Source of the DNA: Nitrospira japonica
Lineage (GTDB): Bacteria; Nitrospirota; Thermodesulfovibrionia; Thermodesulfovibrionales; DYHX01
Assembly: GCA_020723925.1 (NCBI GenBank)
Contig: DYHX01000003.1
Coordinates: 1-52,584, forward strand
DNA: 52,584 nt
Direction: 5' to 3'
A model generated the notes under the pieces. The model was not told the origin of the DNA. It did not search any database and was given only the letters and a program-made list of their open reading frames with translations. Shown piece after piece: positions 16,731-51,404 of this stretch; the stretch's first letter is position 1, and each line of letters starts with the position of its first letter. The position numbers and the translations under genes are program-made.

Positions 16731-16782
16731 ACGTAAGACGTGAAACGTAGTTGCCGTTTCACATCTCACGTCTTACATCAGG
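16731..16782. repeat. Inverted arms of 7-bp-periodic repeats upstream of thyX
   Basis: ACGTAAG ACGTGAA ACGTAGT then CGTTTCA CATCTCA CGTCTTA CATCAGG; perfect 10-bp GTAAGACGTG/CACGTCTTAC. Confidence 0.75.
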
Positions 16783-16790
16783 GAGTCTAT

Positions 16791-17546
16791 ATGCCAGAAG
16801 CGAAACTAAAGGTAATCCTTTTACGCCACACTCCAAATCCTGAGGAGACCATTGCCATGGCTGCGAAGCTCTGCTACAGTCCTGCTGATATTGAATCCCT
16901 TAAAGATAAAATTGAGACTAAAGACCAAAAGATATTTGTAGAGAAACTTGTAAAGATGGGACATATGTCTCCCATTGAGCATGCGTCTTTCACTTTTGCA
17001 ATAGAGGGTATTTCTCGCGCATGTTCTCATCAGCTTGTCCGTCACAGGCTTGCCTCATACAGCCAGCAATCACAGAGATATGTATCAGAATCCAGAGCAC
17101 AGAGCACAGAACACAGAGCACAGACATTTGACTATATAATTCCACCTTCTATAGCAGAAGAACGGGAGGCAAAGAAGGCATTTGAGAATTTTATGATTGA
17201 AGCACAACGGGCATATGATTTCCTTGTCAGAAAGCTGAATGAAAAGGGCATAAAGGGCGAGGCTGCCAATCAGGATGCGAGGTTTGTGCTCCCAAACGCT
17301 GCAGAGACAAAGATAATCGTTACGATGAATGCAAGGGAGCTGCTGCATTTCTTCAGGCAGAGATGCTGCAACCGCGCACAATGGGAGATAAGGGCAATGG
17401 CAGAGATGATGCTACAGTCGGTAAAGGGTGTTGCCCCTGTAGTATTTGCTAAAGCAGGCCCAGGGTGCCTCTATGCACCATGCCCCGAGGGTGAATACAC
17501 ATGCGGAAAGATAAAAGCGGTGAGGAAGAAGTATGGAGTTAAGTAG
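16791..17546 (+). CDS. thyX: Flavin-dependent thymidylate synthase
   Basis: RHRLASYSQQSQRYV ThyX signature (RHRx7S); start refined to MPEAKLKVILL. Confidence 0.95.
   Translation: MPEAKLKVILLRHTPNPEETIAMAAKLCYSPADIESLKDKIETKDQKIFVEKLVKMGHMSPIEHASFTFAIEGISRACSHQLVRHRLASYSQQSQRYVSESRAQSTEHRAQTFDYIIPPSIAEEREAKKAFENFMIEAQRAYDFLVRKLNEKGIKGEAANQDARFVLPNAAETKIIVTMNARELLHFFRQRCCNRAQWEIRAMAEMMLQSVKGVAPVVFAKAGPGCLYAPCPEGEYTCGKIKAVRKKYGVK
17094..17121. repeat. Four tandem 7-bp units (AGAGCAC x2, AGAACAC, AGAGCAC) inside thyX
   Basis: Direct reading; encodes ESRAQSTEHRAQT. Confidence 0.9.
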
Positions 17547-17636
17547 AAAGGAATGATATTGCTTATTTAAATATGTGATATGATGGTATTAAAATCAGGC
17601 TAATATTGATATTAATCAGTACTACAGGGAGGGACT

Positions 17637-17804
17637 ATGCCGATTTATGAGTATGTTTGTATGGTCTGCAAGAAAGAATTTACAGTCATCCTTTCTTTTA
17701 GTGAATATGAGGCGAAGCCAAAAATCACCTGTCCGCACTGCGGAAACGACCACGTGGAGAGGAGATTAAGCACATTTTTCGCAAAGACTGCGAAGAAATC
17801 TTAA
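17637..17804 (+). CDS. FmdB-type small zinc-ribbon protein (55 aa)
   Basis: Below ORF-track cutoff; MPIYEYVCMVCKKEFTVILSFSEYEAKPKITCPHCGNDHVERRLSTFFAKTAKKS, CxxC...CxxC; GGGAGGGAC RBS. Confidence 0.88.
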   Translation: MPIYEYVCMVCKKEFTVILSFSEYEAKPKITCPHCGNDHVERRLSTFFAKTAKKS

Positions 17805-17831
17805 ATAATGATAGGATAGGTTTTATTTAAT

Positions 17832-18023
17832 TTAAATTTCCCCTTTCTTTAACAGTTCCCTTATCTTCTTAGCCTTTTCGTCAAGGGCATAGAATAGAAA
17901 CCGATTTGCATCTTCAAGCCATTCAAGGCGCATCTCGACTGGTAGGGATATATATTTCTTGATATCCTCTTCACTTATATCGTAGAAATAACCTTTTAAC
18001 TCATTTCTCTCTTTATTCTTCAT
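17832..18023 (-). CDS. Small helical protein, partner of upstream nucleotidyltransferase
   Basis: 63 aa; ATG overlaps stop of upstream gene (TAATG). Confidence 0.6.
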   Translation of the reverse strand: MKNKERNELKGYFYDISEEDIKKYISLPVEMRLEWLEDANRFLFYALDEKAKKIRELLKKGEI

Positions 18024-18511
18024 TACTTTATCTTCTTTAATTTCTCAAGCATTTTAATATCTGACAAGTCCTGCTTCCTCGGGGATATCTTTTTCATCTT
18101 AATCATATCATCGATAGAGATTACAGGAATATCAAGGCCAGCGGCCTTCACAGTGATTCGTCTTTCATAGGCTCTGTCAAAGTCTACAGGATTTCTTATA
18201 AACACATCGACCTCCTGATAGGGCTTCTCTGGGTTGTATAAGGTAAATGCGAGCATATTCTTTTCTTTAAACCAGTAGTCCCTTTTTGATTCATCAATAA
18301 ACTCCTCCATCTGGACAGGCACCCTGGGCCTATAATTAAGCCTTTTCATGGCTTCAATAAAGTGATTAGAATTTTTTGTAGAAAGTTCAATCATCAAGTC
18401 GAGGTCTGATGTCATCCTTGGAATGCCATAAAAGTTAAGTGCCATGGCACCTACTACAAGAAATTTGATCTCTGCTTTTATGAGGGTCTGGAATATATCT
18501 TCGTAATACAT
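18023..18511 (-). CDS. Nucleotidyltransferase-fold protein (AbiEii/DUF6036-like)
   Basis: VGAMALNFYGIPRMTSDLDLMIEL (GS-like + DxD motifs). Confidence 0.7.
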   Translation of the reverse strand: MYYEDIFQTLIKAEIKFLVVGAMALNFYGIPRMTSDLDLMIELSTKNSNHFIEAMKRLNYRPRVPVQMEEFIDESKRDYWFKEKNMLAFTLYNPEKPYQEVDVFIRNPVDFDRAYERRITVKAAGLDIPVISIDDMIKMKKISPRKQDLSDIKMLEKLKKIK

Positions 18512-18630
18512 ACAAACTCATTGTAGCAGAACTTCTTTAACATGGAAACACCATTCAGATTAAGGCTTTCAAAAGTATTTGAATTTTTATTAAGATATAT
18601 ATCAATGAAATTAAGGAAATGAGGTAAGTT

Positions 18631-19398
18631 ATGGCATTTGTAATAGCCCTGGCGGGTAAAGGTGGTACCGGAAAGACGAGCATTGCAGGTCTTGCGGTTA
18701 GATATATTGTCGAGAAAAAGAAGAAGCCTGTGCTTGCAGTCGACGCTGATTCGAATAGCTGTCTCAATGAGGCCCTCGGTGTTGATATTCATACAACCAT
18801 AGGACATCTAAGAGAGGAATCCCTCCAGACCATAAGGAGCGGAGCAGAAAGGCCAGGTGGGATGTCTATGGAGCAGCTCTTTGACTATCAGGTACAGCAG
18901 TCCATTATAGAGTCAAAGGGGTTTGACCTTATGGTTATGGGACGCCCTGAAGGGCCTGGATGCTATTGTGCAGCAAATAATATTATAAGGAAATATACAG
19001 ATAAGCTCTCAGAGACCTATCCCTATGTTGTTATAGACAACGAGGCCGGTATGGAGCACCTGAGCAGAAGGACTACCCACAAAGTTGATCTGCTATTAAT
19101 TATCAGTGATCCGACTGTCAGGGGTGTCCAGACTGCAAAGAGGATTAACGACCTTGTTGATGAATTGAACCTTGATATCGATAGAAGGGTTTTGATAATA
19201 AACAGGATTTCAGGGTCTGATGGAGAGTTGCTCAAGAACCTTGCAGAAGACTCTGGGCTTCATGTTGCAGGCATTGTCCCTCAGGACAGCACAATATTTA
19301 ATTATGACCTTCAGGGAAAACCGATATTTCAACTTCCAGAGGATTCACCAGCATTAAGGACAGTTTTCAATATTCTGGATTTGCTTAACATACCATAA
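18631..19398 (+). CDS. cooC: CooC-type CODH nickel-insertion ATPase
   Basis: AGKGGTGKTS P-loop, AVDADSNSCLNEALG; immediately upstream of CODH/ACS genes. Confidence 0.88.
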   Translation: MAFVIALAGKGGTGKTSIAGLAVRYIVEKKKKPVLAVDADSNSCLNEALGVDIHTTIGHLREESLQTIRSGAERPGGMSMEQLFDYQVQQSIIESKGFDLMVMGRPEGPGCYCAANNIIRKYTDKLSETYPYVVIDNEAGMEHLSRRTTHKVDLLLIISDPTVRGVQTAKRINDLVDELNLDIDRRVLIINRISGSDGELLKNLAEDSGLHVAGIVPQDSTIFNYDLQGKPIFQLPEDSPALRTVFNILDLLNIP

Positions 19399-19551
19399 GG
19401 GATTACAAAGATTATAAATAATTTAGGATTTAAACCCAATTTATAAGTTTATAAATTAAAATAATTACTAAAACTCTTTACCTTAAGTGTTAATTTGTGT
19501 TATTTTTTACATCTTAACTGAATTTAAAGACAGGAAAGGAGTCTCCAGAGG

Positions 19552-20334
19552 ATGCTTATAATCGGCGAGAAGTTAAGCATTATAGCCAAAAGGGTCAGAG
19601 ATGCTATGCTGAAGAAGGACAAAGGTCCAATACAGGAGATTGCAACTGCCCAGTGGAAGGCAGGGGCAGGGATGATAGATGCGAATATCGGCCCTGCCGA
19701 GGACGGAGGAGAGGCATTGATGGAATGGATGGTCACAACAATCCAGGAGCTCGTTCCTCTTCCGATATGTCTTGATACAACAAATGCGAGCGCAATAGAA
19801 GCAGGTCTTAAAGTCCATAATAATGAATGGGGCAGGCCCCTTATAAACTCAACCTCAAACGACCCTGAAAGGTTTCCAATCCTTGAGCTTGCTGCAAAAT
19901 ACAATTCACAGGTAATCGGTCTTACAGTCGGGAAGGGTGGTCTTCCTGCAGATGCGGAGGAGAGGGCAGCTATAGCAGCAGAGATGATGGCAAGGGCTAT
20001 GGAGTATGGAGTTCCCCTTGAAGATCTTTATCTTGACCCGCTCGTCCTCCAGATAGCAACATCCCAGGATCATGCAAGGCATGTGATAAAGGCAATAAAG
20101 ATGTTTCAGGAACTTAATGACCCTCCAATGAAAACAGTGGTTGGGCTGAGCAACATATCGAATGGATGTCCAAAGAACATAAGGCCGATTCTGAACAGCT
20201 ATTATCTCTCACTTTTAATGTATGAGGGGCTTACTGCTGCCATAGCAGACCCTCATGAGGTAGCTGTAACAGCAAAAACCATAGATGTGATAATGGGCAG
20301 GACACTTTATGCCCATTCCTATCTTGAGATGTAG
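19552..20334 (+). CDS. acsE: Methyltetrahydrofolate:corrinoid/Fe-S protein methyltransferase
   Basis: Pterin-binding fold, AGAGMIDANIGP; GLSNISNGCP; ACS operon context. Confidence 0.9.
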   Translation: MLIIGEKLSIIAKRVRDAMLKKDKGPIQEIATAQWKAGAGMIDANIGPAEDGGEALMEWMVTTIQELVPLPICLDTTNASAIEAGLKVHNNEWGRPLINSTSNDPERFPILELAAKYNSQVIGLTVGKGGLPADAEERAAIAAEMMARAMEYGVPLEDLYLDPLVLQIATSQDHARHVIKAIKMFQELNDPPMKTVVGLSNISNGCPKNIRPILNSYYLSLLMYEGLTAAIADPHEVAVTAKTIDVIMGRTLYAHSYLEM

Positions 20335-20345
20335 GAGGCGATAAG

Positions 20346-21287
20346 ATGGCCTTTACACCGCCAAAAGAGACTCATGCAGGTAAGGTTTATGCAGTAACGA
20401 TAGGTTCAGGTGAAGGTGCTGTAACATTCGGAGGCGAGAATGTCCTTCCGTTCAATACCTTCGAAGGTGCATCACCACACAGGCCTGTGATTGCCTATGA
20501 AATCCAGGACGTCCTACCATCTGACTGGCCTGAAAATGTCCAGAAACCCTATGAGGGAGTATCTGGCGACCCTGCTACATGGGCAAGGTTCTGCCAGAAT
20601 ACACTTAAGGCAAAGGCTATAGCCCTGAGGCTTGTCGGAACCCATCCTGACAGGGAGAACCGCTCTCCAGAGGATGCAGCAAAGACTGTCAGGGATGTCC
20701 TTGCAGCGCTCAACGTTCCCCTTATAATCCTCGGAAGCAACCATGTAGAAAAGGATGCGCCTGTGCTTATTGCTGCAGCAGAGGCTGCAAAGGACAGAAA
20801 CTGCATAATCGGAAAGGCTCAGGAAGGAAATTACAAGACTATTACTGCTGCTGCCATGGCAAATAACCACAAGCTAATAGCCATGTCAGAGCTTGATATA
20901 AACCTCTCAAAACAGCTTAACATCCTTATAACCCAGATGGGATTTGACAAGGAGAGGCTCATTACGGACCCGATGTGCTCAGCCCTTGGATATGGACTTG
21001 AATACACATACTCTGTTATGGAGAGGATAAGGCTTGCTGCCCTTGCACAGAATGATTTAACTATGCAGCCGCCGATGCTTGGCGATGTTGGCATGTATGT
21101 CTGGAAGATTAAAGAGACCCAGGCGCCTGAATCTGAACTGCCACAGTGGGGTTCGACAGAGGAGAGGGGTATAGCATGGGAGGCAACCACAGCCACAGCG
21201 CTCCTTGTAGCTGGCGCAGAGCTTCTTATCATGAGGCATCCCATGGCTGTAGAGGCGGTAGAGAAGGTAATAGAAGAACTTGTTTGA
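20346..21287 (+). CDS. acsD: CODH/ACS corrinoid Fe-S protein small (delta) subunit
   Basis: CdhD-like sequence; operon position. Confidence 0.92.
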   Translation: MAFTPPKETHAGKVYAVTIGSGEGAVTFGGENVLPFNTFEGASPHRPVIAYEIQDVLPSDWPENVQKPYEGVSGDPATWARFCQNTLKAKAIALRLVGTHPDRENRSPEDAAKTVRDVLAALNVPLIILGSNHVEKDAPVLIAAAEAAKDRNCIIGKAQEGNYKTITAAAMANNHKLIAMSELDINLSKQLNILITQMGFDKERLITDPMCSALGYGLEYTYSVMERIRLAALAQNDLTMQPPMLGDVGMYVWKIKETQAPESELPQWGSTEERGIAWEATTATALLVAGAELLIMRHPMAVEAVEKVIEELV

Positions 21288-21294
21288 AACTATG

Positions 21295-21364
21295 ACACGG
21301 CGAAACAGGGACACGGCGACTCGGAGAAAAATCTCCCCTGCACCGTTTCTCCCATTCTCCGTGT
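21295..21364. repeat. 4+4 inverted 8-bp repeat array (acsD-acsC spacer)
   Basis: ACACGGCG AAACAGGG ACACGGCG ACTCGGAG - AAAAAT - CTCCCCTG CACCGTTT CTCCCATT CTCCGTGT. Confidence 0.85.
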
Positions 21365-21395
21365 TGTTCATATTTTAGAAATTTGGAGGAAAAAG

Positions 21396-22739: not shown

Positions 22740-22742
22740 AGA

Positions 22743-22844
22743 CAGTGTCAGTGTCAGTGAATAGTGTCAGCAATTAGTGCAAGTGAATAGTGACAGTGTC
22801 AGTAAAAGAAAAGAACTGACACTGAACACTGACATTAATCACTA
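22743..22844. repeat. AGTGTC/AGTGAAT short tandem repeat array with inverted arm (acsC-acsB spacer)
   Basis: (AGTGTC)2 AGTGAAT AGTGTC ...; perfect 10-bp stem CAGTGTCAGT (22794-22803)/ACTGACACTG (22815-22824). Confidence 0.85.
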
Positions 22845-22865
22845 TAAATAACATAGGAGGTTGGA

Positions 22866-25064: not shown

Positions 25065-25068
25065 ACTG

Positions 25069-25145
25069 ACGCGGAGACGGGGAGACACGGAGAATCGGAG
25101 AAATAATTTTTTTCACCGTGTCTCCATTTCACCGTTTCCCCGTGT
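25069..25145. repeat. 4+4 inverted 8-bp repeat array (acsB-acsA spacer)
   Basis: ACGCGGAG ACGGGGAG ACACGGAG AATCGGAG - loop - CACCGTGT CTCCATTT CACCGTTT CCCCGTGT. Confidence 0.87.
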
Positions 25146-25167
25146 CAATGAAAAAGGTGGAGGTAAA

Positions 25168-27153
25168 ATGGATAGTACAAAAAGCGCCGATAAATTGGCA
25201 GAACAGATAATAGAGTGGGGCGAAGCCCATGGAATGGAGACCTGTTTTGAAAGGACAGAAAGACTGAAGCCATGCCCTATAGGTTCCAGTGGTGCATGCT
25301 GTAAAGTCTGCCATATGGGGCCATGCAGATTTGTGGGTAAAAATGCAGAGGAAGAAGCAAGAGGCATATGCGGCGCAACGCTTCCAACAGTTGCAGCAAG
25401 GAATCTTGTAAGGATGATTGCTGCAGGGACTGCTGCACACAGCGACCATGCAAGGGACATGGCATTTACCTTACTCGCAGTTGCCAATGGAGAGACAAAG
25501 GACTTTCAGATAAAGGATGTGAGAAAACTCTACAGGGTTGCAGAGATACTCGGCGTTGAATTTGGAAATGGAAGGGCAGTTAACGATGTGGCGAGAGATG
25601 TAGCCCTTAAATTCATTGAAGATTTTGGCAGACAAAAAGGAGAGATAAATTACCTTAAGAGGGCACCCAAAAAGACCCAGGAAAGATGGAAGAAGTGGGG
25701 TGTTGCTACAAGGGGTATAGACAGAGAAGTTGCTGAGGCTATGCACAGGACATCTATTGGTGTTGACCATGACCCTGACCATCTCCTTACACATGGTTTA
25801 AGAACTGCCCTTGCTGATGGATGGGGCGGCTGCATGATAGCCACAGATATTACCGATATTCTTTTTGGAACTCCAAGACCTGTAAAGGCAGAGGCAAGTT
25901 TTGGAATATTCAAAGAGGATGAGGTCAACCTCGTTGTTCATGGACATGAACCATCCCTCGCAGAGATGATAGTAGATGTTACATCAGAGCCTGAGATGAT
26001 TGCCTATGCAAAATCAAAGGGCGCAAAAGGAATAAACCTTGGCGGTATGTGCTGTACTGCCAATGAAGTTCTGATGAGGCATGGTATTCCTACTGCTGGA
26101 GGCTTTACAAATCAAGAATTGGGGATAATGACAGGGCTTGTGGATGCAATCACAGTGGATGTGCAGTGTATAATGCCATCCATTGCTGAGCTTTCAAAGA
26201 AATTCCATACAAAGGTTATAACAACCTCTGAAAAAGCAAAGATTCCGGGTGCAATGCATGTGGAGTACGATGAACACAGGGCAAAAGAGATAGCAAGGGA
26301 GATAGTGAAGATTGCATGTGACAATTTCCCTAACAGAACAACAGGGGGGAGCCATATTACAGACAGGTTCCCTGTAATTGCAGGCTTTTCCCATGAATAT
26401 ATAGAATATATGCAGGGCGGTTCATGGAGGGGCTCATTCAGACCTCTGAATGATGCGATCATTGCAGGAAGGATTCGTGGGGTTGTTGGACTTGCAGGAT
26501 GTGACAATCCGAGAGTACAGTCACAGGGGATTCACAGATTTCTTGCAACAGAGCTTATCAAGAATGATGTGCTTATTGTTTCCACAGGTTGCGGCTCTGC
26601 TGCATGCGGGACTGCTGGTTTTCTTACACCCGAGATGGCATTAGAGAATGCTGGCCCTGGTCTGAGAGAAGTGTGTGAGGCTATTGGAATTCCACCAATA
26701 CTTCACCTTGGTGCATGTGTCGATAATTCAAGAATTTTGACCATTCTTTCGGCAATGGCAGAAGAAGGTGGTCTCTCTGATGAGATTGGTGGTATGCCTG
26801 GAGTTGGTATTGCTCCTGAGTGGATGTCTGAGAAGGCAATTGCCATCGGATGTTATTTTGCTGCATCAGGTGTTCCTGTAATATTCGGCGGCGAATCACC
26901 TGTTGGAGCAAGTCAGGAAGTAACAAGGATAATGACAGAGGTATGGATGGAGAGATTCAGGGGTGCAATGCATTTCGAGCCAGACCCTGAGAAGATGCTG
27001 GCACTTGCCCTTGATTACATTGATAAGGCAAGGGCAGCCCTTAAGTTAAGAAAGTACGAGCCAGGAAGATTTGGCACTGAAAGGGTGCTCATGGATATGG
27101 CTGCAAGGCGTGAAATCGAGAAGGCTGCAAAACCGCATATTGGAATATATTAG
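25168..27153 (+). CDS. acsA: Ni-Fe-S carbon monoxide dehydrogenase catalytic subunit
   Basis: CPIGSSGACCKVCHMGPCRF cluster B/D motif; ATELIKNDVLIVSTGCGSAACGTAG C-cluster region. Confidence 0.96.
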   Translation: MDSTKSADKLAEQIIEWGEAHGMETCFERTERLKPCPIGSSGACCKVCHMGPCRFVGKNAEEEARGICGATLPTVAARNLVRMIAAGTAAHSDHARDMAFTLLAVANGETKDFQIKDVRKLYRVAEILGVEFGNGRAVNDVARDVALKFIEDFGRQKGEINYLKRAPKKTQERWKKWGVATRGIDREVAEAMHRTSIGVDHDPDHLLTHGLRTALADGWGGCMIATDITDILFGTPRPVKAEASFGIFKEDEVNLVVHGHEPSLAEMIVDVTSEPEMIAYAKSKGAKGINLGGMCCTANEVLMRHGIPTAGGFTNQELGIMTGLVDAITVDVQCIMPSIAELSKKFHTKVITTSEKAKIPGAMHVEYDEHRAKEIAREIVKIACDNFPNRTTGGSHITDRFPVIAGFSHEYIEYMQGGSWRGSFRPLNDAIIAGRIRGVVGLAGCDNPRVQSQGIHRFLATELIKNDVLIVSTGCGSAACGTAGFLTPEMALENAGPGLREVCEAIGIPPILHLGACVDNSRILTILSAMAEEGGLSDEIGGMPGVGIAPEWMSEKAIAIGCYFAASGVPVIFGGESPVGASQEVTRIMTEVWMERFRGAMHFEPDPEKMLALALDYIDKARAALKLRKYEPGRFGTERVLMDMAARREIEKAAKPHIGIY

Positions 27154-27212
27154 TGAATAGTAAAAATAAGTGTCTATGACTATTCACTGTTCACTAACGA
27201 CTATTCACTGTT
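27152..27212. repeat. Five 7-bp units (GACTATT CACTGTT CACTAAC GACTATT CACTGTT) with inverted upstream arm AGTGAATAGT
   Basis: Direct reading; AGTGAATAGT 27152-27161 pairs with ACTATTCACT 27179-27188. Confidence 0.87.
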
Positions 27213-27222
27213 TGGGGGTTAG

Positions 27223-27708: not shown

Positions 27709-27709
27709 G

Positions 27710-29596
27710 ATGGGAAAGCTAAAGAGCGCAGAGGATTTGAGAAACCTGAGAAAACTCCTTGAGGATGAGACGTTTAAACCGGGAACCCCGAGGATGAGGG
27801 TCTGCAGCGGTACCGCCTGCACTGCCACAGGCTCACAAAAAGTTGTAAATGCTATACAGGATGAGGCAGCAAGGAGGGGGATAACCCTCGATATTGTAAA
27901 GACAGGCTGCCAGGGTTTTTGCCAGAAAGGGCCTGTCATGAAGGTTGAACCACAGGGGATATTCTATCAGAAGGTTAACCCGGAACACGCCTCATGGCTC
28001 ATTAGCTATACAGTCATCGGAGGGATACCATACAGGCAGGGCCTTTTCAGGGAAAATATTTTGAGCGAACCTATACCTGAGATGACAGATGTACCCTTTT
28101 ATAAGAAACAGGTGAGAATAGTTTTGAAAAACAATGAGCTTATAGACCCACGAAATATCTATCATTATATAGCTGTTGGCGGATATTCAGCCCTGGAGAA
28201 GGCCATTGGCTCCATGACCCCTGATGAGGTATTGAATGAGATAGATAGGGCGAACCTGAGGGGCCGCGGCGGCGCAGGGTTTCCAGCAGGGAAGAAATGG
28301 AGGCACACGAAGAATGCCCCGGGAGAGATAAAGTTTGTAATAGCAAACGGTGATGAAGGAGACCCTGGAGCATTTATGGACAGGTCTGTTATGGAAGGGG
28401 ATCCCCACAGCCTTTTTGAGGGGATGCTCCTCTGCGCGTATGCCATTGGCGCACAATACGGGCTTATCTATGTGAGGCACGAATATCCATTAGCTGTTAA
28501 GAACCTGGGGATTGCAATTAAGCAGGCGGAGGAACTTGGGCTGCTCGGCAAGAATATCCTCGGCAGCAACCTTAGCTTTACCATTGATATAAGGGAAGGC
28601 GCCGGTGCCTTTGTATGCGGTGAATCAACTGCACTTGTTGCATCCATCGAGGGTGAGAGGGGATTCCCAAGGCCGAGACCCCCGAGGCTTTCCGAACCAG
28701 GCGGTGGGGTATGGGGTTATCCGAGTAATTTGAATAATATAGAGACATATGCATGTGTGCCTCCTATAATCGAGAGAGGGGCTGATTGGTTTCGAAGCAT
28801 TGGCACAGAGAATTCTCCAGGCACAAAGGTCTTTGCCCTTACAGGCAAGGTTAAAAACACAGGGCTTGTTGAGGTTCCGATGGGGATAACCCTCAGGGAG
28901 ATTGTTTTTGATATCGGCGGCGGTATTACGGGAGGCAAAAAGTTCAAGGCTGTGCAGACCGGTGGGCCTTCTGGAGGCTGCCTGCCTGCAGAATACCTTA
29001 ACCTGTCTGTGGATTTCGATTCCCTTACAAAGGTTGGCTCTATGATGGGCTCAGGCGGTATGGTCGTCATGGATGAGGACAACTGCATAGTCGATGTTGC
29101 AAAGTTTTTCCTCTCATTCACACAGTCAGAGTCCTGTGGCAAGTGTCCTCCGTGCAGAATAGGCACATCACAGATGCTCGAAATCCTCGAAAAAATAACT
29201 TCAGGACAGGGAGAAGAGGGCGATATCGAACGACTTGAGAAGATAGGAAGGCTTGTCCATGACGGCTCTCTCTGTGGTCTTGGCCAGAGCGCACCGAACC
29301 CTGTGCTTTCTACAATAAAATATTTCAGAGAAGAATACGAAGAACACATATATGATAAATATTGTAGGGCAAAGGCATGTAGCGGTCTTGGCATGTTCAG
29401 GATAGACAATGATGAATGCTTCCTTTGCGGGCTCTGCAAGCAGGCGTGTGCATTCGATGCTGTAAAAGAGACAAAGGATAAATTTTTTATAGATCAAGAC
29501 TACTGCACAAAATGCAAGGCGTGTTACCCTGCATGCCCGATAGGGGCGGTGAAAATAGAAAAACAAGCAAGAAAAAGTGTCAGTGTCAGTGAATAG
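27710..29596 (+). CDS. NuoF/HndC/HydB-type NADH-binding flavoprotein with N-terminal 2Fe-2S-like and C-terminal 2x[4Fe-4S] domains
   Basis: GRGGAGFPAGKKW, NGDEGDPGAFMDR, ESCGKCPPCRIG; C-terminal ferredoxin CFLCGLCKQAC / CTKCKACYPACP. Confidence 0.93.
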   Translation: MGKLKSAEDLRNLRKLLEDETFKPGTPRMRVCSGTACTATGSQKVVNAIQDEAARRGITLDIVKTGCQGFCQKGPVMKVEPQGIFYQKVNPEHASWLISYTVIGGIPYRQGLFRENILSEPIPEMTDVPFYKKQVRIVLKNNELIDPRNIYHYIAVGGYSALEKAIGSMTPDEVLNEIDRANLRGRGGAGFPAGKKWRHTKNAPGEIKFVIANGDEGDPGAFMDRSVMEGDPHSLFEGMLLCAYAIGAQYGLIYVRHEYPLAVKNLGIAIKQAEELGLLGKNILGSNLSFTIDIREGAGAFVCGESTALVASIEGERGFPRPRPPRLSEPGGGVWGYPSNLNNIETYACVPPIIERGADWFRSIGTENSPGTKVFALTGKVKNTGLVEVPMGITLREIVFDIGGGITGGKKFKAVQTGGPSGGCLPAEYLNLSVDFDSLTKVGSMMGSGGMVVMDEDNCIVDVAKFFLSFTQSESCGKCPPCRIGTSQMLEILEKITSGQGEEGDIERLEKIGRLVHDGSLCGLGQSAPNPVLSTIKYFREEYEEHIYDKYCRAKACSGLGMFRIDNDECFLCGLCKQACAFDAVKETKDKFFIDQDYCTKCKACYPACPIGAVKIEKQARKSVSVSE

Positions 29597-29602
29597 TGTC
29601 AG
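29576..29602. repeat. 27-bp repeat AGTGTCAGTGTCAGTGAATAGTGTCAG encoding NuoF C-terminus and stop
   Basis: Identical to 22744-22770. Confidence 0.92.
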
Positions 29603-29654
29603 TAAGAATTTTACTAAGAAGACCACAAGTAAGGCGACATAATTATGTTTGTTT

Positions 29655-29715
29655 TGTCATCCCGACTTGAACGGGATCATTCTTCAAGAAGGATTCCTGA
29701 CAAGCAGGAATGACA
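29655..29715. repeat. REPIN-like inverted hairpin pair, flanked by AAGTAAGGC/GCCTTACTT arms
   Basis: TGTCATCCCGACTTGAACGGGATCATTCTTC...GAAGGATTCCTGACAAGCAGGAATGACA; outer arms 29627-29635 and 29725-29733. Confidence 0.85.
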
Positions 29716-29776
29716 GAGTGTGGTGCCTTACTTATGACCGTATTTGTAACTGACACTGACACTAACTGGAGGCAAG

Positions 29777-30367: not shown

Positions 30368-30376
30368 CTTTAAAAT

Positions 30377-42486: not shown

Positions 42487-42524
42487 TAAGGGCTTTTTAC
42501 TGAATAATTGCAAGAGGAGGATAG

Positions 42525-43793
42525 ATGACGATTACCGAAAAGATACTTGCAGCCCATGCTGATAAGAAAGAGGTTTCGCCAGGAGAGTTGATAAATGCGA
42601 AAGTAGACCTTGTGCTTGCCAATGACATAACCGCGCCAATCGCTATTCAGGAATTCAAAAAGATTGGTGCAAAGGGTGTCTTTGATAAAGACAGAGTTGC
42701 CTTTATCCCTGATCACTTTGCACCACAGAAGGACATAAAGGCGGCCGAGCAGTGCAAGATGCTGAGGGAGTTTTCAAGGGAGTACCATCTTAGTTTATAT
42801 TTTGAGGTTGGAAGAATGGGTATTGAACATGCACTGCTTCCTGAAGAGGGGCTTGTTGTGCCGGGGGATTTGATCATAGGTGCGGACAGTCATACATGCA
42901 CTTACGGTGCCCTCGGAGCATTCTCAACAGGCGTTGGCTCAACAGATGTCGCCTCTGCAATGGCAACAGGTGAGTGCTGGTTCAAGGTTCCTGAGTCAAT
43001 GAAATTTATATATTATGGAAAACTCAATAGATGGGTTGGTGGTAAAGACTTAATACTTCACACCATCGGAGACATTGGTGTTGATGGTGCCCTTTACAGA
43101 GCAATGGAATTTGAAGGGGAGACCATAAGAAACCTTCCCATGCATGCAAGGCTCACGATGTGTAACATGGCAGTAGAGGCAGGCGGAAAGAGTGGTATCA
43201 TTGTGCCTGATGAGATAACAGCGGCTTATGTAAAAAACAGGGCAAAAAGACCATACAAGTTCTATTCTTCAGATGAAGATTCAGATTATATAGAAATAAG
43301 ACAATATAACTGCTCAAAGATTCCCCTCACAGTTGCCTGTCCTCATCTTCCATCAAATACAAGGCCTGCCGTAGAGCTTTTTGAGGTGGCTATTGACCAG
43401 GTTGTAATAGGCTCTTGCACTAATGGAAGACTGGAGGATTTGAGGGAGGCTGCAGAGGTTATAAAAGGGAGGAAGGTAAATTCTAATGTGAGGTTGATAG
43501 TGATTCCTGCAACACAGAGGATTTACAAGCAGGCAATGAAAGAAGGGCTCCTTGATATATTCATAGATGCTGAGGCAGTAGTCTCGACGCCTACATGCGG
43601 GCCATGCCTTGGCGGACATATGGGAATCCTCGCAAAGGGGGAAAGGGCGCTTGCAACAACGAACAGGAATTTTGTCGGCCGTATGGGACATCCAGAGAGC
43701 GAAGTCTATCTCTCCAACCCCGCAGTGGCAGCAGCATCAGCAGTTCTTGGGAGGATCGGGGTTCCTGAGGAATTAGGGTTGCAAAGAGAGTAA
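42525..43793 (+). CDS. leuC: 3-isopropylmalate dehydratase/homoaconitase-type large subunit
   Basis: [47 protein letters not shown]. Confidence 0.88.
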
Positions 43794-43815
43794 TGCGTTA
43801 TGCGTAATGAGTAAT
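43788..43815. repeat. Four 7-bp units GAGTAAT GCGTTAT GCGTAAT GAGTAAT forming leuC stop / ridA start
   Basis: Direct reading. Confidence 0.85.
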
Positions 43816-44328
43816 AAAACCGTAATACCACCGGAAGATAAACTGAAAGAATTGGGTATTGAGCTTCCTGAGGCACCAAAGCCGCTGGGTTCTTATGTCC
43901 CATTTGTAAGGAGCGGGAACCTTGTCTTTCTCAGCGGGATGCTTCCGTTGAGAGGAGGAAAGCTCGTAAGGCAGGGCAGGGTAGGTGAGAATATTACTAT
44001 CGATGAAGCAAGGGAAGATGCAAGAGTAACAGCAATAAATGCATTGTCTGTCTTAAAATTAAACATAGGAAGTCTCAATAAGGTAACGAGATGTGTAAAG
44101 CTAACGGGCTATGTCGCCTCAGCCCCTGATTTTACAGAGCAGCCAAAGGTCCTTAATGCTGCCTCGGACCTGATGTTTGAGATTTTTGGAGAAGGAGGAA
44201 GGCATGCGAGGGCAGCAGTCGGCGTCTCTGTGCTCCCGCTCAATTCACCAATCGAAATAGAGTTCATATTTGAAATAGTTGCTTCTCATCTTCACTTCTT
44301 TACTCGCAACTCATTACTGTTTTATTGA
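43807..44328 (+). CDS. ridA: RidA/YjgF-family protein with repeat-derived C-terminal extension
   Basis: LVFLSGMLPLRGGKLVRQGRVG; VGVSVLPLNSPIEIEFIFEIV. Confidence 0.85.
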   Translation: MSNKTVIPPEDKLKELGIELPEAPKPLGSYVPFVRSGNLVFLSGMLPLRGGKLVRQGRVGENITIDEAREDARVTAINALSVLKLNIGSLNKVTRCVKLTGYVASAPDFTEQPKVLNAASDLMFEIFGEGGRHARAAVGVSVLPLNSPIEIEFIFEIVASHLHFFTRNSLLFY

Positions 44329-44331
44329 CCT

Positions 44332-45639
44332 ATGGTAAAACCTGTTGTTGTAATAGTCGGAAGACCAAATGTTGGCAAATCAACCCTCTTTAACAGGATG
44401 GTTGGCTCTGCCACTGCTATAGTCGAGGATATCCCTGGCGTTACGCGAGACAGAAACTATATGGAGGCAGAGTGGAATGAAAAGGTTTTTATCGCTGTTG
44501 ACACAGGAGGATTTTATCCCGAGCCAGCAGAAGACATATTCCTCCAGGTCAAGGAGCAGGCGCTGTTTGCAATTGACGAGGCAGACCTTATAATCCATCT
44601 GCTTGATGGCAAGGAGGGGCTTAATCCATCAGATATCGAGCTTTCAAGGATCCTCAGGGCATCAGGCAAGAAGGTCATCTGGGCTGTTAACAAGATAGAC
44701 GGACCTAAAAGGGAAGACAGGCTATACGACTTCTATCCCCTTGGAGTTGATGAACTTATACCTGTCTCAGCGGCAACCGGATATAATTTTGATGAATTTA
44801 TGGACAGAATTATTGCCCTGCTTCCACCTGCTGTTAAAAAAGATGTTGATTATCCCAAGGTTGCTGTTGTTGGCAGGCCGAATGTTGGCAAGTCCACACT
44901 TGTGAATGCCCTCCTTGGAAAGAAGAGGATGATTGTCAGTCCAATTCCAGGCACAACAAGGGACTCTATTGACACAGTCTGCAGCTACTATGGCAAGAAG
45001 TATCTGTTTATAGATACAGCAGGTATAAGAAGAAAGGGTAAGGTAGGCTACTCTGTCGAGAGATTCTCGATGGTCAGGGCAATAAGGAGTATAGAACGCT
45101 GTGATGTAGCACTCATAGTGCTTGATGCATCTGAAGGCATAGTAGAACAGGATCAGAAGATTGCAGGCATTGTGGAAAGATATGGCAGGGGGGCGGTATT
45201 TTTGCTGAACAAGTGGGACCTGTTAGAAGACCCTGAGACTGAATACAAGAGGCTCATTCCAGAGCTGCAGCGAAAGATGTGGTTTATCAGCCATGCCCCT
45301 GTGATTACAACAGCAGGCATGGAAAGAAAGAGGATTACAAAGGTTTTTCCTGTAATCGATGAGGTAATCGCTGAGAGGAAGAAGAGGATAAGCACAGCAG
45401 AAATGAACAGATTTTTGAGAGAGGTTGTATCAAGTGCGCCAATGCCTTTATATAAGGGTAAGGCAGTAAAACTCTATTACATGACCCAGGTCAAGACAGA
45501 GCCACCAGGCTTTGCAATCTTCACTAATCATCCAGAAGGCTTGAAAGAGGCGCATATAAGATACATAGAGAAATGTCTGAGAGATAAATTTTCCTTCAAG
45601 GGTACACCCATAAGAATTTATAAGAAATTAAAAATGTAG
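44332..45639 (+). CDS. der: Ribosome biogenesis GTPase Der (EngA)
   Basis: Two G domains: GRPNVGKSTLFNRM and GRPNVGKSTLVNALLG. Confidence 0.97.
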   Translation: MVKPVVVIVGRPNVGKSTLFNRMVGSATAIVEDIPGVTRDRNYMEAEWNEKVFIAVDTGGFYPEPAEDIFLQVKEQALFAIDEADLIIHLLDGKEGLNPSDIELSRILRASGKKVIWAVNKIDGPKREDRLYDFYPLGVDELIPVSAATGYNFDEFMDRIIALLPPAVKKDVDYPKVAVVGRPNVGKSTLVNALLGKKRMIVSPIPGTTRDSIDTVCSYYGKKYLFIDTAGIRRKGKVGYSVERFSMVRAIRSIERCDVALIVLDASEGIVEQDQKIAGIVERYGRGAVFLLNKWDLLEDPETEYKRLIPELQRKMWFISHAPVITTAGMERKRITKVFPVIDEVIAERKKRISTAEMNRFLREVVSSAPMPLYKGKAVKLYYMTQVKTEPPGFAIFTNHPEGLKEAHIRYIEKCLRDKFSFKGTPIRIYKKLKM

Positions 45640-45758
45640 ATGCAAAGTGCAAGATGCAATATGTGCAAGTGTATGTATATGAAAGCTTCTTGCATACACT
45701 TACACATTCACCCCCACACCTATGCATAGGTTGTGGGTGTAAACCCGTGGTGTGGGGG
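45639..45758. repeat. 7-bp repeat array plus nested hairpins in der-yihY spacer
   Basis: GATGCAA AGTGCAA GATGCAA; AAGTGTATG/CATACACTT; ACCTATGCATAGGT (45718-45731) perfect palindrome; CCCCCACACC/GGTGTGGGGG. Confidence 0.8.
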
Positions 45759-45774
45759 TTCACATTCGAGAGAG

Positions 45775-46590
45775 ATGAGATTTATAAGGGTCTTATTTAA
45801 GAGCTTTGTTGACTTTTTCAAGGATGGCGGGATAATGCTTGCTGCCTCGCTGTCATACTTCGCCATGATGGCGATTGTCCCATTCTGCCTCTTCCTCGTG
45901 ACAATCTTCGCATATTTCCTTGGTGAACACCAGGCCTTTTATAAATTTTTTGTGGCAAAGCTCATAAGTTTTTTCCCGAAGATTACCCATGAGATAACAG
46001 AGGAACTCAGGAAGATCATAACATTCAAGGGACTCGGAAAGTTCAGCCTCATACTCTATGGCTTTCTGTCCTACCAGTTCTTTTCATCTATGGAGTCGGC
46101 CATAAATGTGATATTCAAGATAAAAAAGAAGAGGGCATTTATAATCTCCCTGTTCCTCTCATTAGTTGTGGTGACATTGATAATAGCATTTCTTCTTATC
46201 TCCTTTAGTGCAACGTCAATAATCCCCTTGCTCAAGGTGCTGAAGGAGTTTTTCCCTGCGCTGAAGATTGGCAAGATAACAAGCTTTCTCATAAGGTTTG
46301 TTGTGCCATTCTTTCTTGTCCTATTTACTGTTATATCGATGTATATACTTTTACCAAAAAGGAGGATAAAATTCTTCCATGCCTTCTCTGGTGCGCTGTT
46401 TACTGCGATATTACTTGAGATTGCAAAACACCTCTTCACCTGGTATGTTGGGTCTGTCACAAAGCTTGGAACCATCTACGGCCCCCTGTCAGCATTCGTG
46501 GTATTCTTAGTGTGGATATTTTATTCGTCCTGCATATTCCTTATAGGCGGTGAGATTGTGCATAATCTGGGAGACTCAAAAGGAGACTGA
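45775..46590 (+). CDS. YihY/virulence factor BrkB-family membrane protein
   Basis: Polytopic protein, LAASLSYFAMMAIVPF, GTIYGPLSAFVVFLVWIFYSSCIFLIGGEI; start refined. Confidence 0.9.
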   Translation: MRFIRVLFKSFVDFFKDGGIMLAASLSYFAMMAIVPFCLFLVTIFAYFLGEHQAFYKFFVAKLISFFPKITHEITEELRKIITFKGLGKFSLILYGFLSYQFFSSMESAINVIFKIKKKRAFIISLFLSLVVVTLIIAFLLISFSATSIIPLLKVLKEFFPALKIGKITSFLIRFVVPFFLVLFTVISMYILLPKRRIKFFHAFSGALFTAILLEIAKHLFTWYVGSVTKLGTIYGPLSAFVVFLVWIFYSSCIFLIGGEIVHNLGDSKGD

Positions 46591-46591
46591 T

Positions 46592-46756
46592 TTGATAGAC
46601 CTTATTGGTAAGATTGTTGAGGTCAAGGCAAATGACATAACCTATACAGGAAAGCTTGTTGAAGTAGGGGAGACAGAAGTCCACCTCGAATCAGAATTAG
46701 GCTGGATCGTTATCCCGGCTGAGAATATTGCGTTTATAAGGGAGAAAGAGGATTAA
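46592..46756 (+). CDS. Small Sm-like hypothetical protein (54 aa), TTG start
   Basis: LIDLIGKIVEVKANDITYTGKLVEVGETEVHLESELGWIVIPAENIAFIREKED; AGGAG RBS 6 nt upstream of TTG. Confidence 0.6.
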   Translation: MIDLIGKIVEVKANDITYTGKLVEVGETEVHLESELGWIVIPAENIAFIREKED

Positions 46757-47649
46757 CCTAAATCCCCAAGTAAAAACTGAACAAGCGTCACTGCTGATAT
46801 TGCGGCTGTCTCTGCACGTAGTATTCGCCTGCCGAGAGACGTAACAATCAGTCCTTTAGACTTTGCAAGATTAACCTCTTCTTCTGTGAACCCACCCTCA
46901 GGGCCAATGGCAACAAAGAGTGGGCAGTGAATAGTGAATAGTGAATAGTGAATAGTATCTACTTTATTTTCTGCCGACTGTTCACTAACGACTATCGACT
47001 TTTTTAATTTCTCCACTGCCTCTGATATCTTTATGCCTCCTTCTTCCCAGAAGATGAGGCCGTTTATAGGCTGGGACAGTCCCGATTCTACCCCTCGTAA
47101 ACTCGGCGGTAAATCTGGGACAGTCCCATCGTGAGCGTGTAATCCCCCATCACCCCCCTTTAGAAAAGGGGGGGCGGGGGGATTTGAACTAAAAATGTCG
47201 CAGAAATTAACAGGCTCATGAACAACAGGAATCATAGTTCTACCGCTCTGTCTCGATGCCTCCTCTGCTATCTTTCTCCATCGCTCGACCTTTCTTGTCT
47301 CCCTTATCTGGCTCCTCTCTGTGATTGTCGGGATTATCTCTTTAACTCCAAGCTCTGTTGCTTTTTGAATAACGAGATCCATTTTTTCGCCCTTCATAAG
47401 TCCCTGTACAAGTGTAATATTGAGCGGAGACTCTGTATTGCAAGGGAATGTCTCTATGACCTCTGCAATGACCTCTCTTTTGTCTGTCTTAATGATGGTT
47501 GTTTTTAAACAGTTTCCCATACCATCAAATATGACCAGAGTATCGCCGACCTTACTTCTCAATACCGATGTTAGATACCTGGCCTGCTCCTTTTGTATTC
47601 GTATGTGTCTTTCTTTTAGATCAGCTGATGGCAGTAAGATTCGAGGCAT
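46753..47649 (-). CDS. rsmE: 16S rRNA m3U1498 methyltransferase RsmE with two repeat-derived in-frame insertions
   Basis: ATELGVKEIIPTITERSQ; AIGPEGGFTEEEV; RRILRAETAAISAV. Confidence 0.93.
   Translation of the reverse strand: MPRILLPSADLKERHIRIQKEQARYLTSVLRSKVGDTLVIFDGMGNCLKTTIIKTDKREVIAEVIETFPCNTESPLNITLVQGLMKGEKMDLVIQKATELGVKEIIPTITERSQIRETRKVERWRKIAEEASRQSGRTMIPVVHEPVNFCDIFSSNPPAPPFLKGGDGGLHAHDGTVPDLPPSLRGVESGLSQPINGLIFWEEGGIKISEAVEKLKKSIVVSEQSAENKVDTIHYSLFTIHCPLFVAIGPEGGFTEEEVNLAKSKGLIVTSLGRRILRAETAAISAVTLVQFLLGDLG
46927..47003. repeat. 7-bp repeat inverted arms inside rsmE
   Basis: (GTGAATA)4 46927-46954, spacer, GACTGTT CACTAAC GACTATC GACTTTT 46976-47003. Confidence 0.9.
47070..47189. 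repeat. Palindromic repeat insertion inside rsmE
   Basis: Two CTGGGACAGTCCC copies and ATCCCCC...CCCCCCTTTAGAAAAGGGGGGG...GGGGGGAT; encodes NPPAPPFLKGGDGGLHAHDGTVPDLPPSLRGVESGLSQP. Confidence 0.85.
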
Positions 47650-47658
47650 TAACCCCCT

Positions 47659-48762
47659 CTATTTTTCAGCGCTCGAAAATAAATCCTTCAGTTTCTCTTT
47701 AAACCCTTTCGAAACCTCATCACCATTTATTTTTGCAAATTCCTCGAGTATCTCCCTCTGTCTCGGTGTGAGTCTCTTTGGCACTTCAACATATACCCTG
47801 ACAATCTGGTCACCCTTTGCATGGCCGCCAAGTTTTTGTATACCTTTCCCCTTGAGATGGAAGGTCTTTCCAGAAGGAGTTCCAGCAGGAATCTTTATTT
47901 TTGCTATACCATCAAGGGTGGGCACTTCTATCTCTGCCCCAAGGGCTGCATGGGGAAATGCGATCGGAATCTCACAGAATAAATCCATCCCATCCCTTTT
48001 GAAGAAGGGGTGTTCATCAACATGCAGAATTATGTAGAGGTCACCTGGCGGACCTCCGTAGACACCAAGTTCACCTTCCCCTGACATCTTGAGTCTTGAA
48101 CCTGTATCAACGCCTGGGGGGATTTTTACTGATATGGTGCGGACCTTTTTAACCTTGCCATTTCCCCTACACGTTGTGCAGGGGTCTGTAATAATCTGGC
48201 CAGTTCCATGGCAGCGGCCACATGTCCTTGAAACGCTGAAGAACCCCTCCTGAAACCTGACATGCCCTGTACCTTTGCAATTTGGACATGAAACAGGTCC
48301 CTTGCCTGGCATGGAACCTGTGCCATTACATGGTGTGCAGTTTTCCCACCTTGGCACCTCTATGAATTCCTCAGTGCCAAAGGCAGCCTCCTCAAGGGTT
48401 ATATCGAGGTCATATCTCAGGTCATTGCCTTTTGTTGGCCTCGGTCTGCGCTGTCCTGTAAATGTTCCGAAGAAGTCTCCGAAGATATCCTCAAATACAT
48501 CCGTGAAGGCTGTTCCGCCTCTGAATGCTCCGAACCCAGCTCCAATGCCTTCTGCTGTTCCAAATCTGTCGTAGTTTGCCCTTTTTTCAGGATCGCTGAG
48601 GCAGGTGTATGCCTCGTTTATCTCCTTGAATTTTTCTTCGGACTCTTTATTCTCGGGGTTCCTGTCAGGGTGGTATTTCAGGGCAAGGCGCCTGAACGCC
48701 TTCTTAATTTCGGCTTCAGAAGCGTTTCTTGATACACCCAGCATTTCATAATAATCTCTCAT
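47659..48762 (-). CDS. dnaJ: Chaperone DnaJ
   Basis: J domain HPD; four CxxCxGxG zinc repeats. Confidence 0.97.
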
Positions 48763-48764
48763 TT

Positions 48765-48842
48765 TTATTAGTTATTAGTTTTAGTTAGGGATTTTCTGTC
48801 GTCTTTCCTTAACCCCTTAACTACTTGCTACTTATTACTTGT
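48765..48842. repeat. 7-bp repeats in dnaK-dnaJ spacer
   Basis: TTATTAG TTATTAG ... TACTTGC TACTTAT TACTTGT. Confidence 0.7.
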
Positions 48843-48843
48843 T

Positions 48844-50754
48844 TTAGTTCTCCTTCTTATTTTTATCTACTTCTTCGAATTCTGCTTCAACAACTTCTTC
48901 TTCAGGTGCTTTTGCTTTTGCTTCAGCACCTGCGCCTGCTTGTGCCCCTGCTGCCCTGTATATGTGCTCTGCAAATTTGTGAGAGGCCCTTGTGAGATTT
49001 TCAATTGCAGACTTTATCTCTGCCACATCTGTGCTTGTATCCTTGACTTTCTTACATTTTTCCAGTGCATCTTCTACATCTTTCTTCTCAGACTCGCTAA
49101 GCTTGTCTCCATATTCGCGGAGGGATTTTTCTGCTGTGTATACAAGGGTGTCAGCCTCATTCCTTGCCTCAGCGAGCTGTTTCTTCTTCTTGTCCTCCTC
49201 TGCATGGGACTCTGCATCCCGCATCATCTTTTTGATCTCTTCTTCTGTGAGGCCGCTTGATACAGTTATCCTTATGGATTGTTCTTTGCCTGTGCCAAGG
49301 TCCTTTGCTGACACATGGAGTATTCCATTGGCGTCGATATCAAATGATACCTCTATCTGTGGCATACCTCTTGGTGCTGGTGGTATTCCTACGAGTTCAA
49401 AAACCCCGAGGAGTTTGTTATCTGCTGCCATTTCCCTTTCACCCTGGGACACCTTGATCGTTACTGCAGGTTGATTGTCAGCAGCAGTCGAGAAGATTTG
49501 ACCCTTTTTTGTCGGGATTGTTGTATTCCTCTCTATAATCTTTGTGAATATACCACCGAGGGTCTCTATGCCGAGTGAGAGCGGAGTGACATCCAGGAGA
49601 AGTACTTCCCTGACCTCTCCTTTGAGCACTGCGGCCTGTATTGCAGCTCCCACAGCAACAACCTCATCCGGATTAACGGTTTTGTTTGGCTCCTTCCCAA
49701 AAAAGCCCTGAACTGTCTGCTGAACCTTTGGTGTCCTTGTCTGCCCGCCAACAAGAAGTACCTCATCAATATTCAAAGGAGATAAATTTGCATCACCGAG
49801 GGCATTTTTGCATGGCCCAATTGTTTTCTCTACGAGGTCTCCTGTAAGCTGTTCGAACTTTGCCCTTGAGAGTTTCATCAAGAGGTGTTTTGGACCTGTT
49901 GCATCGGCCGTTATGAACGGAAGGTTTATCTCTGTCTCCATGGCTGTCGAAAGCTCGATTTTTGCCCTTTCAGCAGCCTCTTTAAGCCTCTGCAGCGCCA
50001 TCTTATCCTGTTTCAGATCAATGCCCTGGTCTTTTTTGAATTCGCCTACCATCCAATCGATAATCCTCAGGTCAAAGTCATCACCGCCGAGGTATGTATC
50101 GCCATTCGTGGACTTTACCTCTATTACACCCTCACCGATCTCGAGTATGGATATATCGAATGTGCCTCCTCCAAGGTCATAGACAGCAATCTTCTCCTCT
50201 CTCTTCTTGTCCATCCCATAAGCAAGGGATGCAGCTGTTGGCTCGTTAATTATCCTCAATACATTAAGTCCTGCAATCTTGCCTGCATCTTTTGTTGCCT
50301 GGCGCTGGCTGTCGTCAAAATAGGCCGGTACTGTTACGACAGCATCTGTAACAGGTTCTCCGAGATAATCCTCAGCAGCCTGTTTCAGTTTCTGCAGTAT
50401 CATGGCAGATATCTCAGGAGGAGAATACATCTTTCCCCTTATCTCCACGTGGGCATCTCCATTGAGTGCCTCGACTATCCTGTATGGCAATCGCTTTTTT
50501 GCATGCTCAACCTGAGGGGAGTTGTACTTTCTTCCCATGAGCCTTTTTATTGAGAATATTGTATTCTCAGGGTTTGTAATCGCCTGTCTTTTGGCAATCT
50601 GGCCAACGAGTCTCTCCCCCTTTTCAGTAAAGGCAACGACAGATGGAGTTGTCCGGGTGCCCTCCTGGTTTGGGATGACCACAGGCTCGCCAGCCTGGAC
50701 AACGGCAACAACAGAGTTTGTTGTGCCAAGGTCTATTCCTATTGCTTTACCCAT
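48844..50754 (-). CDS. dnaK: Chaperone DnaK (Hsp70)
   Basis: [22 protein letters not shown]. Confidence 0.98.
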
Positions 50755-50759
50755 TTTTA

Positions 50760-51404
50760 TTATTCCTCCTCATCTTTATTTATATTTATTCTAATCTCTA
50801 TATTGCCTTCTTCTGTCTTTTCTTTCTCCTGACTCTCGACTAACGACTGACGACTATTGACTGTCTTTTGAGGTTTCTTTGATACAGCAACAAGGGAAGG
50901 GCGCAGCACTTTATCCCTGAACATGTAGCCCTTTCTAAACTCCTCAACCACTGTTTTTTCATCTGTGTCCTCTCTCTCAACCTGCGTCATAGCATGATGC
51001 AGCGATGGATCGAATCGTTTGCCGAGGGCAGAGATTGGAGTAATGCCGAATTTCTCAATGACCCTCTGGAACTCCTTGAGTGTTATCTCTACGCCCTGGA
51101 CGAGTCCCTGTGAAACATTATTCGATGAATGTTTCACAGCCAACTCGAGATTATCTATAACAGGCAGGAGTTCATACAGCAATGACTCATTGCTGTATTT
51201 TATAAGCTCCTCCTTATCTTTCAATACCCTCTTCCTGTAATTGTCGAACTCTGCATAGAGCCGCAGGTACCTGTCTTTTAATTCCTGTAGCTCCTCCTCG
51301 GGTTTTAGTTTTTCTGTCTCCACCACCTCTTCTTTTTCACCGATAACCTGTTCCATTCCTGAAACTTCTTCCTCTCTCTTCTCTATGGTTTTATTTTCTT
51401 CCAA
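50760..51404 (-). CDS. grpE: Nucleotide exchange factor GrpE
   Basis: GrpE coiled coil and [12 protein letters not shown]-terminal beta domain. Confidence 0.93.
50831..50865. repeat. Five 7-bp GACTNNN units inside grpE C-terminus
   Basis: GACTCTC GACTAAC GACTGAC GACTATT GACTGTC. Confidence 0.92.

Follow-up and report, generated by a model that had tools for sequence, protein, structure and literature searches.

Heptad-repeat hairpins of a Nitrospirota genome are probably gene-less relatives of 23S rRNA intervening sequences

The stretch of DNA analysed here (the window; 52,584 bp) is the complete contig DYHX01000003.1 (G000:C79) of the 1.87-Mb genome of Nitrospira japonica, and the relatives used for comparison belong to the Thermodesulfovibrionales, Nitrospirota. 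Its genes include thyX, a carbon monoxide dehydrogenase/acetyl-CoA synthase (CODH/ACS) operon, a Nuo-like pair, RidA and Der genes, and an hrcA-grpE-dnaK-dnaJ-rsmE cluster. Thirteen loci in the spacers and genes of this contig consist of short tandem units, often with an inverted arm. Arms of the same kind flank genes of the four-helix-bundle family (4HB; PF05635), known from the intervening sequences (IVSs) of 23S rRNA genes, and the window loci are probably short selfish inverted-repeat elements of the IVS kind, mostly without the open reading frame (ORF). Below, G numbers denote genomes (G000 is the source genome, the others are relatives) and L numbers denote loci (e.g., L192 in G000). The genomes compared are metagenome-assembled, relatives were searched with one dictionary pattern, and ORF calls are mechanical.

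The 13 loci were scored for 6-9 bp periodicity and for ungapped hairpins against shuffled sequences, and 11 of them were also folded. A first-pass annotation had described one architecture shared by all 13, of which the periodicity stands: a periodic segment matched by at most 3% of shuffles is present at 12 loci, and at the remaining one, 21295, periodicity is weak (14/200 shuffles match), yet the 8-bp-unit hairpin is strong. The inverted arms are less general. Hairpins are clear at eight loci (16731, 21295, 22743, 25069, 27152, 29576, 45639 and 46927), with fold z values of about -2 to -5. These eight thus have complementary termini able to form a stem as in an IVS, and so do the arms of 4HB loci. 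Inverted arms are marginal at 48765 and 44285, and by hairpin scoring against shuffles none were found at 17094, 43788 and 50831, which are single arrays. Similarly, periods of 7 and 8 bp are real, but a strict register was too strong a description, as 22743 and 29576 mix AGTGTC 6-mers with AGTGAAT 7-mers.

The spacer before thyX holds a GTAAGACGTGAAACG-type hairpin (16729..16773, arms 16729-16747 and 16755-16773; fold z -4.4). The GTG start at 16740 in the mechanical thyX call falls within this hairpin, and the ATG at 16791 is the likelier start. Inside thyX, a single period-7 CAGAGCA array runs in frame without a hairpin (17093..17124, plus strand; 0/200 shuffles). An AbiEii-like nucleotidyltransferase, of a type IV toxin-antitoxin family, is encoded at 18023-18511 on the minus strand. 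Three hairpins occupy the CODH/ACS operon: one of GACACGGC/ACACGGCG-type 8-mers before cdhD, the delta subunit gene (21290..21365; fold z -4.8), one of mixed 6- and 7-mers between cdhD and acsB (22743..22850), and one of 8-bp units, GACGCGGA / TTTCACCG, between acsB and cooS (25068..25147; fold z -5.4). An AGTGAAT-family hairpin lies between the cooS-like and NuoE-like genes (27150..27212) and, like that at 22743, was recognised by folding and shuffle scoring. At 29576..29763, AGTGTC/AGTGAAT arms (29576-29603 and 29749-29763) enclose a loop occupied by an element with TGTCAT..ATGACA ends, resembling repetitive extragenic palindromes (REPs) or miniature inverted-repeat transposable elements (MITEs). 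Such REP/MITE-like elements with TGTCATTCCCGC..GCGGAATGACA ends were seen at 29601-29745 of the window and in the L025, L027 and L028 spacers, within the loops of heptad hairpins too.

Further downstream, a single period-7 GTAATGC array precedes the RidA-like gene (43790..43815, plus strand; shuffle scoring), a weak array, ACTCGCA ACTCATT ACTG, marks the RidA-Der boundary (44282..44320, plus strand; 3/200 shuffles), and the Der-BrkB spacer combines an AGATGCA array with a TGCAAGTG hairpin (45638..45707, hairpin arms 45661-45677 and 45691-45707). Inside rsmE, an arm of four AGTGAAT units and an AGTCG/AGTGAAC arm (46915..47004) belong to a dispersed family. This hairpin supplies about 24 in-frame residues of RsmE that are absent from relatives, and other species have other inserts nearby. 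A second in-frame RsmE insert, NPPAPPFLKGGDGGL..PDLPPSLRG (about 47070-47200, minus strand), is a different dispersed repeat. The dnaK-dnaJ spacer holds a TTATTAG array with a weak inverted partner (48765..48843; fold z -1.7), and the C-terminal tail of grpE a single AGTCGTT/AGTCGTC array, read on the gene strand (50831..50865, minus strand). Every one of these loci is in an mRNA spacer or a protein gene, none in a 23S or 16S rRNA gene. No Rfam 15 covariance model matches anywhere in the window, and no 4HB similarity was found in it, so that all 13 loci are without a PF05635 ORF.

PF05635 was searched for in 61 genomes and the flanks of the matches were inspected. Short-period convergent arms lie beside most matches, in the source genome itself (L192), in relatives and in other phyla, a link that the first-pass annotation missed. 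When a periodic arm was required in both 150-bp flanks, 35/50 chromosomal and 12/15 plasmid 4HB loci qualified, 47/65 in all, whereas 6/700 control genes did (Fisher p=3e-53), and the flanks show a strong inverted match at 36/65 4HB loci against 3/700 controls. Arm periods are 7 in the majority and otherwise 8 or 9. In the sampled neighbourhoods, all five 4HB matches stand beside a periodic array, two of them with arrays on both sides at threshold 7. The plasmid genes (from Cyanobacteriota, Gemmatimonadota, Bacteroidota and Alphaproteobacteria) were the subject of a prediction fixed before inspection, and 12 of the 15 bore it out. One Riemerella plasmid has no array in 50 kb besides those at its 4HB gene, and the link between gene and arms can therefore not be put down to background density. 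On an Azospirillum plasmid (L255), the 4HB element is located inside 23S rRNA (Rfam E=3.9e-278) with a heptad stem and is a classical 23S rRNA IVS. The system thus gains a gene and a known relative.

Gene and arrays also go together at the level of genomes. PF05635 is present in 22/25 genomes rich in AGT/TGA heptads and in 13/36 others (p=6e-5; rho 0.68); counted by genus, the only control for phylogeny, the figures are 17/18 and 10/25 (p=3e-4). The nearest solved structure to the 4HB protein of this genome is XCC0516 of Xanthomonas campestris (2GSC, E 1.7e-25), a homopentamer (PMC4990558). A phage origin of 4HB was considered and dropped, with no match in 50,697 phage records. Several 4HB elements are of note for their position: L243 and L251, which differ in their arm words, come from plasmids of two cyanobacterial genera, where each occupies the spacer between cas6 and cas4 of a CRISPR operon, and in four genomes (L193, L195, L198 and L224) the element has one and the same location, immediately ahead of a P-loop ATPase reading ..FFSGKGGVGKTT, a recurrent site. 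On the Gemmatirosa plasmid, L257:18041-18117 is an ORF-less 9-mer hairpin (CGCAGAGGA / TCCTCTGCG), hence the 9-bp variant occurs without the gene as well.

The source genome was sampled as stretches, 628 kb for counting periodicity and 947 kb (about half of the genome) for array anatomy. A stringent lag test gave 141 loci of period 7; without four that are runs of N, 137 remain, where third-order Markov sequence yields 3. Periods 14 and 21 increase along with 7, the peak at 8 is much smaller and 9-13 are near background. The dispersed system in operon spacers and genes that had been proposed from the window is therefore a property of the genome. Among the 233 arrays in the anatomy sample, neighbours at most 80 bp apart are purine-rich then pyrimidine-rich in 33 cases, in the reverse order in none and alike in 16; as the purine-then-pyrimidine order is its own reverse complement, this is a true polarity. 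Arms are more similar within loci than between them (0.65 vs 0.54; 0/5000 permutations as high), many arm pairs consist of different words, and some loci are nested (R1 R2..Y2 Y1). About half of the loci fall within long (mechanically called) ORFs, below expectation, but not rare.

All-against-all comparison gave 33 locus pairs with at least 85% identity over at least 40 bp, in both orientations, such as a ATGGAATTCCTTTA loop family and an AGTGAAT/AGTCGTT family that includes the rsmE locus. The recurrence of the same word order at unlinked sites, noticed earlier, is confirmed: several contigs carry AGTGAAT-AGTCGTT-AGTGAAC-AGTCG, and alignments between loci span 50-78 bp, loops included. Since loops as well as arms are common to unlinked loci, many loci are copies of elements. 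Families of the order differ sharply in their dictionaries, as the 6-Mb relative G056 shows: its TGA-type heptads number in the hundreds, whereas those of the AGT type are nearly absent.

These observations bear on ordinary heptamer microsatellites, in which 7-nt polymerase slippage and fold-back template switching would make the arrays and their inverted partners, with the 4HB gene a passenger recombined in. Among long simple repeats, heptamers are the most frequent class in many bacteria, an excess for which contact of the polymerase with 7 nt has been proposed (as summarised in PMC4679880), and units do vary along the arrays, with words common to several genomes. Slippage of this kind would not give unlinked copies the same loops, a 33:0 polarity or arms of different words, nor would it place arms beside 4HB genes where other arrays are absent, as on the Riemerella plasmid; slippage in place is also not the sole source of unit change, whole elements being copied and replaced. 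We consider this account unlikely.

The polarity, the nested loci and the different words of the two arms could also be produced if a telomerase-like or template-switching polymerase added purine-rich heptads to both 3' ends of a double-strand break before the ends were joined. However, elements recur as wholes, with their loops conserved, and the polarity is weaker in elements with the ORF (26 purine-then-pyrimidine, 5 the reverse). RVT_1 was not found in the source genome, in line with the first-pass annotation, which saw no reverse transcriptase near the loci, or in G013, G025, G045 and G049, and across the 61 genomes it is not associated with arrays (p=0.19, rho 0.04). A role of reverse transcriptase is unlikely, and break-end extension as a whole has little probability.

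Turnover at orthologous sites is rapid. In some sister genomes, which are 91-94% identical (G013/G025 and G023/G053), different heptad hairpins occupy orthologous sites with near-identical flanks. Among relatives, the CODH operon spacer that corresponds to the 22743 locus is occupied by no fewer than seven unrelated hairpins or REP-like elements, and in L030 a 4HB ORF lies between the two arms. Among 97 comparisons, run in both directions and hence not independent, the site showed a different periodic element in 35, another hairpin in 13, other sequence in 16, the same element in 18 and its absence in 15; of these last, about half are trivial short matches, the others being cleanly empty sites. 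In the comparison of orthologous spacers, one of the checks proposed earlier, close relatives with flanks 80-98% identical mostly had another periodic hairpin in the spacer, or none at all. One site has arrays of 34 and 20 bp (L025/L024), which fits heptad slippage, as does the copy number of the tandem GACAGAT heptamers before the S23 ORF of the Coxiella 23S IVS, which varies by strain (PMC4990558). At the L231 site, three congeners differ: G013 carries arms and a 4HB gene, G045 the same arms with the ORF internally removed and a short end kept, and G025 nothing; this single site shows the transition from an ORF-bearing to an ORF-deleted element.

Exact element ends were sought in two 4HB copies of G011 (L194/L223; 95% identical and separated by 216 kb, sharing an internal stop but not their arm units), and this guide was abandoned because homology extends beyond the arms, so that the pair does not define the ends. 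For the G013 loci L226 and L199, the orthologue search gave no aligned empty site.

Hairpins selected by the host as RNA (RNase III sites, mRNA stabilisers or attenuators at operon junctions) would account for the strong folds that several loci form (z -4 to -5) and for placement between stop codon and Shine-Dalgarno sequence. They are hard to reconcile with the clean losses at orthologous sites and the many copies within coding sequence, and selection on RNA pairing is unsupported by wobble pairs, as sense-strand mismatches show no excess of G.U over A.C (31 vs 28; 100 vs 91); we regard this account as very improbable. Nor is the selection on length suggested by the first-pass annotation needed, given this lack of wobble bias and the copying and replacement of whole elements. 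REP-type palindromes mobilised by REP-associated (RAYT, Y1) transposases are equally improbable: PF01797 is present in the source genome and correlates with arrays (rho 0.49), and REP/MITE-like elements occupy the same spacers, but the presence/absence association is not significant (p=0.15), the array-rich G025, G045 and G049 have no PF01797 match, and the REP-like elements are separate sequences within the loops.

We therefore favour, at roughly two chances in three, the reading that the window loci belong with the 23S rRNA IVSs as short selfish inverted-repeat elements, mostly ORF-less. A complete element would be a PF05635 gene between two convergent arms of 7-bp (sometimes 8- or 9-bp) tandem words, and most copies, including all 13 in the window, would have lost the gene to become bare hairpins or single arms. 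The elements would settle in spacers between stop codon and Shine-Dalgarno sequence and in tolerant loops of proteins, their arms growing and shrinking by heptad slippage, and would quickly be gained, swapped and deleted. We infer that they move as units; the 4HB protein, a pentamer in Xanthomonas, presumably helps by binding the arms. By analogy with the Coxiella IVS, which is excised by RNase III (PMC4990558), trimming of the arm RNA may make insertions tolerable.

Several observations count against this reading. Elements with the ORF number only 2 in the genome against hundreds of bare arrays, with none in the window, and loss of the ORF was seen at one site only. The two-arm threshold is missed by 18/65 4HB genes, and the arms of L251 have the same orientation. 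G028, G009 and G024 bear arrays without a PF05635 match, and RAYT genes correlate with arrays as well, more weakly than PF05635. No consistent target duplication was found at empty sites. Arm words of ORF-bearing elements are no closer to the arrays of their own genome than to those of other genomes; a same-genome source of words for both kinds of element was accordingly dropped, the dictionary being common to genomes. Finally, we know of no mobility enzyme for IVSs.

The first-pass annotation had pointed to cyanobacterial short tandemly repeated repetitive (STRR) sequences and Rickettsia palindromic elements, and both analogies lead in the right direction. STRRs are heptanucleotide tandem repeats of heterocystous cyanobacteria, a group whose plasmid 4HB genes are array-flanked here. 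The STRR3 unit becomes AGTCAAC on rotation, and to our knowledge STRRs have not been described as paired or gene-linked. Rickettsia palindromic elements are short palindromes that insert in frame into genes, as does the RsmE insert; each family has one consensus and no heptad arrays, and we know of no link to 4HB genes. The 23S IVSs of Coxiella, Leptospira and Azospirillum (L255) are closer, with a PF05635 ORF between complementary termini, sporadic and horizontally spread occurrence, frequent lack of the ORF, and heptameric repeats at the ORF edge (GACAGAT in Coxiella, PMC4990558; the stem of L255). They are described only in rRNA genes, unlike the window copies in operon spacers and protein genes, which belong to a set of hundreds, nearly all ORF-less.

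The GGGAATC heptamers of Xanthomonas campestris (70 convergent pairs) and the GGGGA(T/C)T heptamers of Nostoc, published as G-quadruplex sequences, are likewise dispersed arrays, mostly intergenic, with many convergent pairs and variable between close species (PMC4692102). Each of these genomes uses one word, unlike the large dictionary found here; in X. campestris, heptamer pairs and XCC0516 occur in one species. The TAACTGA direct repeats of Beggiatoaceae, Cyanobacteria and Bacteroidetes are intergenic heptamer tandem repeats in scattered lineages as well, but consist of a single word, stand mostly upstream of start codons and include only one reported inverted pair (PMC4679880). In the open literature, subscription papers lying outside the search, we found no paper that links the S23/4HB gene to heptamer arrays outside rRNA.

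A wider proposal, which we hold tentatively and at somewhat less than even odds, is that a class of mobile elements extending across phyla has PF05635 as its core gene and spreads with neither transposase nor reverse transcriptase, convergent arms of 7-9 bp repeats being its recognition sequence, and that 23S IVSs, Xanthomonas and Nostoc heptamers, STRRs and operon hairpins are members or remnants of this class. If true, one explanation would cover three old puzzles: where 23S IVSs and their S23 protein come from, why heptanucleotide repeats occur in cyanobacteria, Xanthomonas and elsewhere, and what role is played by the very abundant genes for a 'four helix bundle protein' in environmental genomes. 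A role of the IVS ORF in mobility, suggested in 1993 (Ralph and McClelland, cited in PMC4990558), could then be tested in free-living laboratory strains. The proposal would also account for the unrelated hairpins in operon spacers of related bacteria, and advises caution in reading such hairpins as conserved regulators. Together, the results suggest that one overlooked family of selfish elements lies behind several repeat puzzles that had looked unrelated.

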